This document shows positions 11,649 to 15,644 of a DNA stretch of 64,000 nucleotides, in pieces. Source of the stretch: Phaeovibrio sulfidiphilus (lineage in GTDB: Bacteria > Pseudomonadota > Alphaproteobacteria > Rhodospirillales > Rhodospirillaceae); contig NZ_JACZHT010000002.1 of assembly GCF_014861485.1 (NCBI RefSeq), positions 372,001-436,000 on the forward strand, in the 5' to 3' direction. The notes under the pieces are model-generated. The model was not told the origin of the DNA and did not search any database. It worked only from the letters and a program-made list of their open reading frames with translations. Each line of letters begins with the position of its first letter. The stretch's first letter is position 1. Both the position numbers and the translations under genes were made by a program.

Positions 11649-12117
11649 GGGAGTGCTTTATAGCGGGTTTGCCCGTCCGGGGGAAGACGGAAACCGGGGG
11701 CAGGACACGCTCCGGGCACGGGTTTGGGGGCTGCACCGGCCGGGGCCGCCGCTCCGGATTGCGGGTGCGCGAACCGTTTCGGGGGCAGTGGCTGTCATGG
11801 GGCCCCAGCGTTCCACAGGCTGGAGGACTGGGGCTGCACAGGCACAGGGGCAGGGGCTTCCGGCTGCCCTGCCGGCCAACACCCCTTCGGGTCGAGGTTC
11901 ATCGAAAATGCGCCTATGGGATGTAATTCATCTTGACCGCACAGGCCGTCCCGAGCAGTCTCAATTCACAGACAACACAACGATAATGAGCGGTTGCGCT
12001 TGCTGCTCTCCCGGGGGCCCGGTGGCAGGTCGTGGCCCCGCGCGGGGGGAGGGCCCGAACGAACCACCCGAGGCAGGATCCGGGCAGGCGCACCCTTTGC
12101 CGGGGGAAGGAAAAATC
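11649..12117. other. Intergenic region upstream of the CTERM gene pair
   Basis: This 469-base divergent gap separates gpsA from the tandem CTERM genes. A lower-GC patch at about 11890-11990 is the likely promoter zone. I see no convincing paired -35/-10 and no gene. The last 30 bases, just before the start at 12118, recur in similar form just before the second gene at 12921. Confidence 0.4.
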
Positions 12118-12924
12118 ATGAACGGAATTCTCAAATCAATCAGGGCCCGCTCCGTGGTCCCGCTTCTGTTTCTTTCTGTGGCTCTCGGAGCGATGCTGGT
12201 GCCCTCGTCCTCCCGGGCGGCGGACGACACCTACTTTCACCGATTTGAGAGGGTGACGGTGAACACGTCATACGGTTTCTCGGGCCGGCTTATGGTTGGT
12301 CGGGACGTTGGTCCACCGTGGAACCCCGAGGTAACCCCGGTCAGCCAGATTCAACTTGATGGCGGAATGATCCACAAGCTTCCTGTGCCGGGGGGTGGGA
12401 CCGACTGGAACAAGAGCCTCGGGATCCGGCTTGAGGTTCCGCTCACGCTCGTAAAGCCTATGGCTCTGAAGCTGAGACTGTCGATTCCCGAGTATCGCAT
12501 TGCTCCCGATGATTATGTGCCCTTTGAGGGCGAGGGGATTGTCTTCAATATCAAGGGGCGCGGTGTGGATTGGTCGCGTTCCATCTCGAGTGGCCCGGCA
12601 CTGAACGAGTGGGAAACCCACAAGCTGGCGTATCTGGAACCGGGAGAGTATGTCCTGTCCATGTCGGGAGTGGTCGGTGGTTTCGGGGACCGATCCGTGA
12701 ATGCCTGGTCGTTCAGCGGGAACTTTCTCATGTTCAGTGTGGGAGTTGTCGAGACCGATGTCCCCCTGCCTGGCGCCCTGATTCTTCTGGGCACGGCTCT
12801 GGCCGGGGCGGGGGCGGTCGCGCGCCGCAGGCACCGGGCGGTGGCCGGGACCGGGGGGCGGAAAAGCCCCTCCCGGCCCGGATGCCCACGGGCGCAGTCC
12901 CAGCCGGGGAAGGAAAAATCATGA
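12118..12924 (+). CDS. VPLPGAL-CTERM secreted protein, copy 1
   Basis: The predicted product is 268 residues and I do not recognise its central domain. The N-terminus is a signal peptide (about residues 1-35, ending 'PSSSRAADD'). The middle is beta-rich and ends in a 'YLEPGEYVLSMSGVVGGFGD' segment. Near the C-terminus is DVPLPGAL, a hydrophobic alanine/glycine/leucine stretch and a basic cluster ARRRHR: the three-part layout of PEP-CTERM/VPLPA-CTERM sorting tails, which exosortases recognise. Unusually, 28 more residues follow the basic cluster. GGAAGG precedes the ATG by 8 bases. The stop overlaps the start of the next, paralogous gene. Confidence 0.8.
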   Translation: MNGILKSIRARSVVPLLFLSVALGAMLVPSSSRAADDTYFHRFERVTVNTSYGFSGRLMVGRDVGPPWNPEVTPVSQIQLDGGMIHKLPVPGGGTDWNKSLGIRLEVPLTLVKPMALKLRLSIPEYRIAPDDYVPFEGEGIVFNIKGRGVDWSRSISSGPALNEWETHKLAYLEPGEYVLSMSGVVGGFGDRSVNAWSFSGNFLMFSVGVVETDVPLPGALILLGTALAGAGAVARRRHRAVAGTGGRKSPSRPGCPRAQSQPGKEKS

Positions 12925-13721
12925 ACGGATTTGTCACGACGATCAGGGCCCGCTTCGTGGTCCCGCTTCTTTTTCTTGCTGTGGCTCTCGGAGCGACGCT
13001 GGCGCCCTCGTCCTCCCGGGCTGCGGAGGACACGTACGTTTATCGGTTTGAAACAGTGAACATGTATCATTCCTATGGGCTTATTGCGGGCGCCCTGTAT
13101 GTCGGGCACAAGTACGAGCGCTACGGGGGCGGAGAATGGTGGAGCTCGACCAGCGAGTTGCGATTCAACTTTGTTGAGCACGACGACTGGAGCATGCGCT
13201 GGCCCAGCATGAGCCTGCCCTCGCCGTACAGGTATCCGGACTGGGACAACAAGCAGAATATCCGTCTGGAGATTCCCTTTACGCTTCACAAGGCCATGGG
13301 GCTGGAGTTCGGCGCGTCGAATCCCACGGGGGCCCGAGGCAAAGATCTGTACATGGACCTCCCGGGGAACGGGCTGACCTTTACCCTGCAGGGGCCCGGG
13401 GTGAACTGGACGGGCGTCCTGGATGGCAAAGCGGGCATGGGGGATCTTTCGGCGGTCTGGGCCTACCTGGAATCGGGCGACTATGTTCTCTCCCTGTCGG
13501 GAACGATCGGCGGTTTCCTGGACGGTTCGCTGGATGGTCTTGATTTCCGCGGACAGTATGCCGGGTTCAGCGTGACGTTCAGCGATGTCCCCCTGCCGGG
13601 CGCCCTGGTTCTTCTGGGTACGGCTCTGGCCGGGGCGGGGGCGGTCGCGCGCCGCAGGCATCGGGTGCGGCCGGGAACTGGAGCGGCGCACCCCGCTGAC
13701 CCGGGGCAGGGTCGGATCTGA
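12921..13721 (+). CDS. VPLPGAL-CTERM secreted protein, copy 2
   Basis: This 266-residue protein is a paralogue of the preceding one. The signal peptide and the CTERM segment (DVPLPGAL, hydrophobic stretch, ARRRHR) are almost identical at DNA level, with 4 differences in 81 bases between 12757-12837 and 13584-13664. The middle differs strongly, with 'WAYLESGDYVLSLSGTIGG' in place of 'LAYLEPGEYVLSMSGVVGG'. Its ATG overlaps the stop of copy 1 (ATGA), and the leader GGGGAAGGAAAAATC is shared. About 20 residues follow the basic cluster. A surface or biofilm-matrix role is an inference from the sorting tail. Confidence 0.8.
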   Translation: MNGFVTTIRARFVVPLLFLAVALGATLAPSSSRAAEDTYVYRFETVNMYHSYGLIAGALYVGHKYERYGGGEWWSSTSELRFNFVEHDDWSMRWPSMSLPSPYRYPDWDNKQNIRLEIPFTLHKAMGLEFGASNPTGARGKDLYMDLPGNGLTFTLQGPGVNWTGVLDGKAGMGDLSAVWAYLESGDYVLSLSGTIGGFLDGSLDGLDFRGQYAGFSVTFSDVPLPGALVLLGTALAGAGAVARRRHRVRPGTGAAHPADPGQGRI

Positions 13722-13995: not shown

Positions 13996-14027
13996 AAAAA
14001 GGCCCGGCGGTGTGCCGGGCCCTTTTT
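13996..14027. terminator. Bidirectional terminator between CTERM copy 2 and prfC
   Basis: AAAAA, then GGCCCGGC, a five-base loop, GCCGGGCC, then a T run. The perfect 8-bp stem is flanked by A and T runs, so it can terminate in both directions. It lies 21 bases past the prfC stop and about 275 bases past the CTERM pair. Confidence 0.9.
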
Positions 14028-14048: not shown

Positions 14049-15644
14049 TTACAGTCCGGTGTGCTCCTTGGTCTTGTGGAACGAGACCTTGGGGTAGTCC
14101 TCCGCCGCCCGGTCAAGGTGCCAGGCGTTTCGGGCCAGAAAGACCGGATCGCCGTCGTGGTCGTCCGCCAGGGCCCCCTGGTTCGCATCCACGAAGGCTT
14201 TCAGCACCCGGGGATCCTCCGCACTCACCCAGCGGGCCGTGTAGAGCGTGGTCGGCTCGAAAATCACGGGCACGTCATACTCGGTCCGGATCCGGTCCGC
14301 GAGGACGTCGAACTGCAGCGGTCCCACCACGCCCACGATCCAGTCCGCGCCGATCCGGGGCTTGAAGACCTGGGCTGCGCCCTCCTCGGCCAGCTGGGAC
14401 AGGGCACGGCCCAGATGCTTGGCCCGCAGGGGATCCTTGGGGCGCGCCTTTTGCAGCATTTCCGGGGCAAAGCTGGGAATGCCGGTGAAAAACAGGGACT
14501 CGCCCTCGGTCAGCGCGTCGGCAATGCGAAGCTGCCCGTGGTTGGGCACGCCGATGATGTCTCCGGCGAAGGCCTCCTCGGCCAGCTCCCGGTCCTGGGC
14601 CAGGAACAGGGTGGGCGCGTGCATGGTCAGCTGCTTGCCCGTGCGCACATGGGTCAGCTTCATGCCCTTCTTGAAGTGCCCCGAGCAGATGCGCACAAAC
14701 GCGATCCGGTCCCGGTGCTTGGGGTCCATGTTGGCCTGGATCTTGAAGACAAAGCCCGTGACCTTGTCTTCGTCCGGCAGAACCTCGCGGGTGGTGGTGT
14801 TCTGGACCCGGGGGGAGGGCGCCATCTCCGCGATGCCGTTCAGCAGCTCGCGCACACCGAAATTGTTCACGGCCGAGCCGAAAAACACGGGGGACAGGTG
14901 CCCGGCCCGATAGGAGTCCCGGTCGAAGGGCGGACACAGGCCGCGCACCATCTCCACATCCTCCACCAGCTTTTCATAGGCGTGGGAGGGCAGGCGGTCC
15001 GCCAGCTTCGGGTCATCCAGCCCGGTGAACTGTTCGCCCTCCTTGGGCAGGGCGCCTTTTGCGCCCTTTTCCATCAGCACCAGCCGGTCCGACAGCAGGT
15101 CATAGCAGCCCAGGAAGTCCCGTCCCATGCCGATGGGCCAGGTGGCCGGGGTCACGTCCAGAGCCAGGGTCTGCTCGATCTCGTCCAGAAGGTCCAGGGG
15201 CTCGCGCCCGTCCCGGTCCAGCTTGTTGATAAAGGTGATGATGGGGACATCGCGCAGGCGGCAGACCTCGAACAGCTTGCGGGTCTGCTCCTCGATGCCC
15301 TTGGCCGAGTCGATCACCATGACGGCGGAGTCCACCGCCGTGAGCGTCCGGTAGGTGTCCTCGGAGAAGTCCTCGTGCCCCGGTGTGTCCAGCAGATTGA
15401 ACGCGCAGCCGGTGTAGTCGAAGCTCATGACCGAGGACGCCACAGAGATGCCACGCTCGCGTTCCACCTTCATCCAGTCCGAGTGGGCGCGTCGGGCCTC
15501 CCCCCGGGCTTTCACAGCGCCTGCAAGCTGAATGGCGCCCCCGAAAAGCAGCAGCTTTTCCGTCAGGGTGGTCTTGCCCGCGTCAGGGTGGGCGATGATG
15601 GCGAAGGTCCGCCGCTGGTCGATTTTGTCGGAGATGAAGCTCAT
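14049..15644 (-). CDS. prfC: Peptide chain release factor 3
   Basis: RF3 is a GTPase that removes RF1/RF2 from the ribosome after termination. The product is 531 residues, close to the E. coli length. GTPase motifs are 'AHPDAGKTTLTEKLL' (G1), 'LLDTPGHEDFSEDTYRT' (G3) and 'TFINKLDR' (G4). The C-terminal 'GVVGPLQFDVLADRI' is characteristic. I start at MSFISDKIDQRRTF (15644). The open frame extends nearly 400 codons upstream, but that stretch is antisense to the ABC transporter genes. Confidence 0.96.
   Translation of the reverse strand: MSFISDKIDQRRTFAIIAHPDAGKTTLTEKLLLFGGAIQLAGAVKARGEARRAHSDWMKVERERGISVASSVMSFDYTGCAFNLLDTPGHEDFSEDTYRTLTAVDSAVMVIDSAKGIEEQTRKLFEVCRLRDVPIITFINKLDRDGREPLDLLDEIEQTLALDVTPATWPIGMGRDFLGCYDLLSDRLVLMEKGAKGALPKEGEQFTGLDDPKLADRLPSHAYEKLVEDVEMVRGLCPPFDRDSYRAGHLSPVFFGSAVNNFGVRELLNGIAEMAPSPRVQNTTTREVLPDEDKVTGFVFKIQANMDPKHRDRIAFVRICSGHFKKGMKLTHVRTGKQLTMHAPTLFLAQDRELAEEAFAGDIIGVPNHGQLRIADALTEGESLFFTGIPSFAPEMLQKARPKDPLRAKHLGRALSQLAEEGAAQVFKPRIGADWIVGVVGPLQFDVLADRIRTEYDVPVIFEPTTLYTARWVSAEDPRVLKAFVDANQGALADDHDGDPVFLARNAWHLDRAAEDYPKVSFHKTKEHTGL

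Follow-up and report, generated by a model that had tools for sequence, protein, structure and literature searches.

The window, a stretch of 64,000 nucleotides of the Phaeovibrio sulfidiphilus genome, carries on its forward strand two genes, here named A and B, which are tandem overlapping paralogues, with the TGA of A and the ATG of B overlapping by four bases (ATGA). Their parts are as follows.

12100..12117, + strand: leader/ribosome-binding stretch of A, common to B (upstream DNA alignment)
12118..12924, + strand: gene A, 268 aa, VPLPG-CTERM protein (open frame, translation, TIGR03370 match)
12118..12234, + strand: 5' zone of A, residues 1-39, signal peptide region read by eye, near-identical to B (pS 0.15)
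12235..12756, + strand: middle of A, residues 40-213, predicted beta-sandwich, diverged from B (pS 0.59; model pLDDT 71.6)
12757..12837, + strand: CTERM zone of A, with DVPLPG, hydrophobic stretch and ARRRHR (4 differences from B in 81 bases)
12838..12921, + strand: unusually long C-terminal extension of A, holding the leader of B (30 residues beyond the 24-residue CTERM)
12904..12920, + strand: leader/ribosome-binding stretch of B, within the 3' end of A (upstream DNA alignment)
12921..13721, + strand: gene B, 266 aa, VPLPG-CTERM protein, its start overlapping the stop of A at ATGA (open frame, translation, TIGR03370 match)
12921..13037, + strand: 5' zone of B, near-identical to A (zoned divergence, pS)
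13038..13583, + strand: middle of B, diverged from A (zoned divergence, pS)
13584..13664, + strand: CTERM zone of B (zoned divergence, pS, and base comparison with A)
14001..14021, + strand: terminator-like hairpin 3' of B (consensus scan only)

Each protein has a hydrophobic start, a middle of about 175 residues and, close to the C-terminal end, the segment DVPLPGAL(I/V)LLGTALAGAGAVARRRHR. Read by eye, both N-termini consist of a basic n-region, a hydrophobic core and an SSRAA site, and both C-termini are tripartite, with the VPLPG motif, a hydrophobic stretch and an Arg cluster. Scanning A and B for promoters gives none, which is uninformative as to promoters of other sigma factors. An open frame on the minus strand ends at 14049, near the terminator-like hairpin.

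The divergence between A and B is distinctly zoned. By NG86 counts, residues 1-39 have a pS of 0.15 and a dN of 0.12 (dN/dS ~0.7), residues 40-213 a pS of 0.59 and a dN of 0.64 (dN/dS ~0.56, saturated), and residues 214-240, the CTERM, a pS of 0.11 and a dN of 0.02, while the tail beyond residue 240 returns to a pS of 0.63. The dN/dS of ~0.17 in the CTERM indicates that this segment is under purifying selection. At the DNA level, 77 of the 81 bases of CTERM codons 214-240 are identical; the best 5' local block (128/146 bases identical) begins 15 bases ahead of the ATG and ends at base 131, and the best 3' block starts one base before the CTERM (88/94 aligned bases identical). The first-pass annotation had described a shared leader, signal peptide and CTERM segment around strongly diverged centres, and the zone-by-zone comparison agrees on each of these points, with divergence far from uniform along the genes. 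Its further suggestion, that the exposed centre is diversifying, finds no such backing: with a dN/dS of ~0.56 and saturated dS, the middle of A and B gives no evidence of positive selection.

The same zoning appears among codons at which the residues of A and B agree (zones 1-35, 36-213 and 214-238). Identical codons number 24/26 in the signal zone, 30/59 in the middle and 22/24 in the CTERM, against 9.3, 23.6 and 8.2, respectively, predicted from codon usage alone, and the ends together (46/50) differ from the middle (30/59) with a Fisher p of 2.3e-6. In a run-permutation test for a single segment, none of the 91 family pairs survives Bonferroni correction, the best being 349/350 at 0.20, and A/B lies outside the top 12 of the 91, a rank which we think reflects a two-ended pattern under a one-segment test.

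In the genome of P. sulfidiphilus (2.59 Mb, 31 contigs, 97.6% complete), A-like proteins number 14, situated on contigs C12 (141/142, 307, 349/350 and A/B), C23 (217, 223 and 287), C28 (120) and C29 (85/87/88). Besides the tail, residues of A such as L111, L173, G176 and Y178 are invariant in 14/14 members, so the bodies share one domain, with A and the other 12 members at 23-27% identity. TIGR03370 has 16 matches in the genome, two of which are partial (13.2 and 9 bits) and were left out of the family. The search supplies the further copies that the first-pass annotation had proposed to look for, with the ends shared only among some of them; adjoining, 48-49% identical in protein sequence and members of this family, A and B also fit the duplication origin proposed for them. 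Gene 142 on C12 (L032:5256-6194, - strand) contains a Gly/Asn-rich middle insert of roughly 70 residues that is absent from the other 13. Beyond this genome, B has no match at 1e-12 in 60 related genomes (1/61 with its own), and the pattern stretches found in viral contigs with A (2), in genome contigs with the 14-row family alignment (7) and in genome contigs with XrtD (26) are all unconfirmed.

The predicted model of A (pLDDT 71.6, pTM 0.60) is a beta-sandwich with a C-terminal helix, the strands lying within residues 38-210. In Foldseek, the best PDB hit, at E 1.3e-3, misses the threshold of 0.001; VIA-align gives a best Z of 8.8 (10/1000 chains at 8 or above), little above the 7-8 typical without a true relative, and searching solved structures by profile gives a single row at E 0.11. 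A function from the fold was dropped, the structural matches being near the level expected without a true relative.

A single exosortase match exists in the genome, at G000:C29:95358-97019. It is XrtD (TIGR04152), the exosortase specific to VPLPA-CTERM proteins, which scores 468.7 bits (cut-off 400) and carries a fused EpsI/DUF3485 domain; the XrtD model has matches in 14 of 61 genomes (this one plus 60 relatives), 6 of them above the cut-off. The three-part tails had been interpreted as exosortase sorting signals, and the tripartite C-termini of A and B together with this enzyme are consistent with that interpretation. TIGR03370 matches A and B over its full length (1-25/25); in whole-protein scans the scores are 20.7 bits for A and 22.1 for B, below the cut-off of 25.35, and in the genome scan they are 26.5 for B and 25.2 for A, or 25.8 with neighbours in frame. 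Pfam, run on A and B only, gives the PEP-CTERM motif alone, and NCBIfam only CTERM-protein profiles, all below cut-off, among which the FxDxF profile extends back to residue 159 of A. XrtD would be the enzyme that processes the tag of this family.

The xrtD neighbourhood (G000:C29:79000-117900; L038/L159) was judged by reading translations, without family searches and under names of our own, over 79.0-117.9 kb of C29, and within it no exopolysaccharide cluster is seen beside xrtD. The gene adjoins dnaJ-dnaK and ribonucleotide reductase, the other genes read as yebC, ruvC, dapB and further non-exopolysaccharide genes, and the three substrate genes 85/87/88 lie 6-10 kb off. In the PEP-CTERM/EpsH system, the exosortase usually stands by an exopolysaccharide cluster, unlike XrtD here, an association which is usual but not excluding.

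The tails of A and B are a complication. After the 24-residue CTERM, A continues for 30 residues and B for 20, against 7-9 in the other 12 paralogues, which places exosortase processing of A and B in real doubt. In the consulted part of Haft et al. 2006 (PMC1569441), 87% of the proteins have fewer than ten residues after the CTERM, and the rare tails that are dramatically longer are regarded as possibly non-functional. On this basis A and B may be decaying or unprocessed, lost stops having given the two extensions, a reading that the whole-protein TIGR03370 scores below cut-off would also suit and that is compatible with recombination at the ends. It is nevertheless rather unlikely: both frames are intact, the dN of the CTERM is low (0.02) and the genome-scan scores of 26.5 (B) and 25.8 (A, with neighbours in frame) exceed the cut-off. 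Furthermore, the extension of A carries the leader of B and may therefore be a cost of the overlapping arrangement, as fits a two-gene unit.

Elsewhere in the same genome, tails are shared in several forms. In 349/350, the pS is 0.78 in the signal zone, 0.58 in the middle and 0.16 in the CTERM (NG86). The common block of the two genes (201/219 bases identical) extends from 128 bases before the stop to 94 after it, taking in the CTERM, the stop, 94 nt of 3' flank and an inverted repeat, which the terminator scan does not call a terminator, and ends ahead of the T-run hairpin of 349. In 87/88, the CTERM pS is 0.36 against 0.65-0.76 elsewhere. The body of gene 87 is closest to 85, with 70-80% DNA identity up to the CTERM, and the gene is 88-like from VPLPG on. 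At informative sites, those that distinguish 85 from 88 and at which 87 agrees with either, the ratio of 85-like to 88-like sites is 243:40 before VPLPG and 5:30 from VPLPG on (p = 8e-18); in codons with one residue in all three genes, it is 13:4 before and 2:6 after (p = 0.028). Gene 87 is thus a mosaic, with a body like 85 and a CTERM like 88, and is the clearest case.

Across the family, the mean CTERM codon identity is 0.675 in the five adjacent pairs versus 0.425 in the other 86, a level reached by 2/20000 label shuffles. Adjacent genes also have slightly more similar bodies (0.53, a value that 46/5000 shuffles reach), so part of the adjacency effect is shared descent. The pair 141/142 shows no homogenisation, its CTERM codons being at background (10/21).

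A survey of 148 PEP/VPLPA-CTERM genes extends the comparison to 12 genomes, the own genome and 11 others, chosen among the matches listed and nearly all picked for visibly close hits; survey genes against matches number 19/22 in G061, 17/18 in G033, 13/16 in G074, 7/13 in G464 and 7/18 in G216. Neighbouring genes are those on the same strand within less than 3 kb, with 85/88 counted as such despite 87 between them and close pairs on opposite strands placed among the other pairs. An open frame of G061 that contains two CTERMs was left out first (1 neighbouring and 17 other pairs), then pairs with bodies at least 60% identical (7/31 neighbouring and 14/951 others). Since the pairs are not independent, the Fisher values given here are rough. 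CTERM codons at least 80% identical beside diverged bodies occur in 5/24 neighbouring versus 31/937 other pairs (p = 0.0014), 28 of these 31 coming from one genome with a high background, G032. Without G032, the counts are 4/23 versus 3/818 (p = 1.4e-5), and without G032 and the own genome, 2/18 versus 3/733 (p = 0.0052). Similarly, the 3' flank is common to 3/24 neighbouring versus 1/937 other diverged-body pairs (p = 5.4e-5), or 2/18 versus 1/733 without G032 and the own genome (p = 0.0016). Meanwhile, 19/24 neighbouring diverged pairs, among them 87/88 (19/27), fall below the 0.8 threshold, which indicates that copying of the tail between neighbours is an occasional process.

Two pairs from the other genomes combine a shared 3' end with unrelated bodies, at ~25% in forced alignment. 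In G345 (C4 1087499/1088505), 166/170 bases of the 3' block are identical, from 9 bases before the CTERM hit to 59 past the stop, beyond the hairpin, and the 5' regions have no match above shuffles. In G033 (C556 7437/8531), 165/178 bases are identical, from 6 bases before the CTERM hit to 94 past the stop, again beyond the hairpin, and the 5' regions have a short weak match (score 18, reached by 0/200 shuffles).

Several further arrangements were observed in these genomes. In the G033 block (G033:C556; L053), the loop of the hairpin is seemingly inverted between the two copies (TTTCGACA vs TCGAAACG), with the stem kept. A G544 pair (C11 597929/603723; L066, 597000-604200), 5.8 kb apart on one strand, has a common 3' flank (score 53) and CTERM codons that are not alike (7/19), and is the sole distant pair with a shared flank in the survey. 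A 623-codon open frame in G061 (G061:C2:296500-299000; L124) contains two PEP-CTERM motifs in head-to-tail order, as though the stop codon of the upstream gene had been lost. At least seven PEP-CTERM genes lie within 15 kb in G464 (G464:C1:1313000-1330000; L073), including three near-identical whole copies interspersed with diverged genes. Two pairs were compared apart from the 12-genome survey. In G060 (G060:C1:953500-959000; L050), two PEP-CTERM genes of 308 aa, separated by 1.3 kb, encode proteins with a single residue difference and have identical codons at all the same-residue positions compared, a very recent whole-gene tandem duplication, and the pair in G045 is not homogenised (8/20).

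Judged from these sequences, the likeliest cause of the tail sharing is short-tract recombination of a 3' module, either by gene conversion or by local duplication, which would explain why gene 87 is a mosaic, why non-coding flanks are shared and why A and B diverge in zones. A and B would be two of 14 predicted substrates of the XrtD exosortase, each with a secretion signal, a variable beta-sandwich and a VPLPG-CTERM tag. Their history would begin with a tandem duplication leading to the two-gene overlapping unit; the bodies would then have diverged to synonymous saturation, and later short-tract recombination between neighbours, presumably gene conversion, would have re-copied both ends. This account of duplication, body divergence and re-copied ends within an XrtD-substrate family is, as a whole, probably correct. 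In the remaining cases, both within this genome and in two further ones, what is exchanged would be the 3' module, consisting of the CTERM codons, to which three pairs add the stop codon and the inverted repeat behind it. Selection for a tag fitting the single exosortase may simultaneously help to hold the tails alike as the bodies drift.

The first-pass annotation had attributed the likeness of both ends to conversion. For the CTERM-coding end, the recombination seen in 349/350 and 85/87/88 favours that proposal. Within the own genome, the 5' end is homogenised only in A/B, where the middle may instead have been replaced. In that event, a young whole-gene duplication would have been followed by replacement of one middle from a divergent allele or paralogue, the ends being the unreplaced original. 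Such a replacement would produce the zoning seen at the two ends of A/B, and it would accord with the fast turnover of PEP-CTERM sets, which the consulted part of Haft et al. 2006 (PMC1569441) places among the fastest-evolving sets in their genomes. Nevertheless, it is distinctly improbable, given that no donor of the middle was found in searches of this genome with A and of this genome plus 60 relatives with B, that the middles of A and B are nearer each other (0.49 DNA identity) than to those of the other 12 (at most 0.42), and that in gene 87 the tail appears imported from a neighbour onto an 85-matching body. Constraint on silent sites at the ends (translation start, RNA structure, codon bias), without recombination, could by itself produce the low pS there, but it is very improbable because other paralogues vary at these positions (mean CTERM codon identity 0.42 in 85-86 pairs; pS 0.78 in the signal zones of 349/350) and the non-coding 3' flank is common to three neighbouring pairs.

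Under short-tract recombination, a more general possibility can be put forward tentatively, as somewhat less likely than its opposite: the CTERM codons, the stop and the inverted repeat could constitute a cassette of DNA, ~170-220 bp long, that has time and again been copied onto adjacent genes or from one such gene to the other. Such copying would match tags to the exosortase, create new substrates from unrelated secreted proteins and explain the likeness of tags within a species. If the tag does travel as a DNA module between neighbours, this would offer a testable mechanism for the substrate set of one intramembrane sortase, and show how such an enzyme acquires, retains and re-tags a large number of unrelated surface proteins.

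The consulted part of Haft et al. 2006 (PMC1569441) reports greater similarity among the CTERM regions of one species than across species, which it ascribes to paralogous expansion of a modular domain. The modular tag, the paralogous expansion and the within-species likeness of tags are common to that account and the present one. However, the former describes similarity of proteins, and the string 'recombin' is absent from the portion of its text consulted, whereas here the DNA, the stop and the 3' inverted repeat are common to neighbours, in two cases with unrelated bodies. The passages seen of the open-licence papers contain no account of conversion of the CTERM tag or of its copying as a DNA module, and those of the open-licence sortase/LPXTG literature, among the matches listed, no occurrence of 'gene conversion'. 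The kind of protein is thus already known, and the new part would be that the tag is copied as a module of DNA, which was not found in the passages covered by this literature search.

Compared with VPLPA-CTERM/PEP-CTERM systems (TIGR03370, PF07589, XrtD TIGR04152), the family has the same signal peptide-like start and tripartite C-terminal tag, with many lineage-specific copies per genome and, here, one match for an XrtD-EpsI fusion exosortase. There are also differences: the motif is VPLPG in 11/14 members, with VPLPA, IPLPG and TPLPG in one each, the tails of A and B are long, and the tag DNA is near-identical between some neighbours. In Neisseria pilE and Borrelia vlsE, gene conversion swaps the variable part from silent cassettes. 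For silent cassettes in P. sulfidiphilus, the coverage consists of the whole-genome searches for A and TIGR03370. By analogy, the constant flanks and the variable middle of A and B resemble those systems; however, the variable part is swapped there, whereas it is the constant tag end that appears to be copied here.
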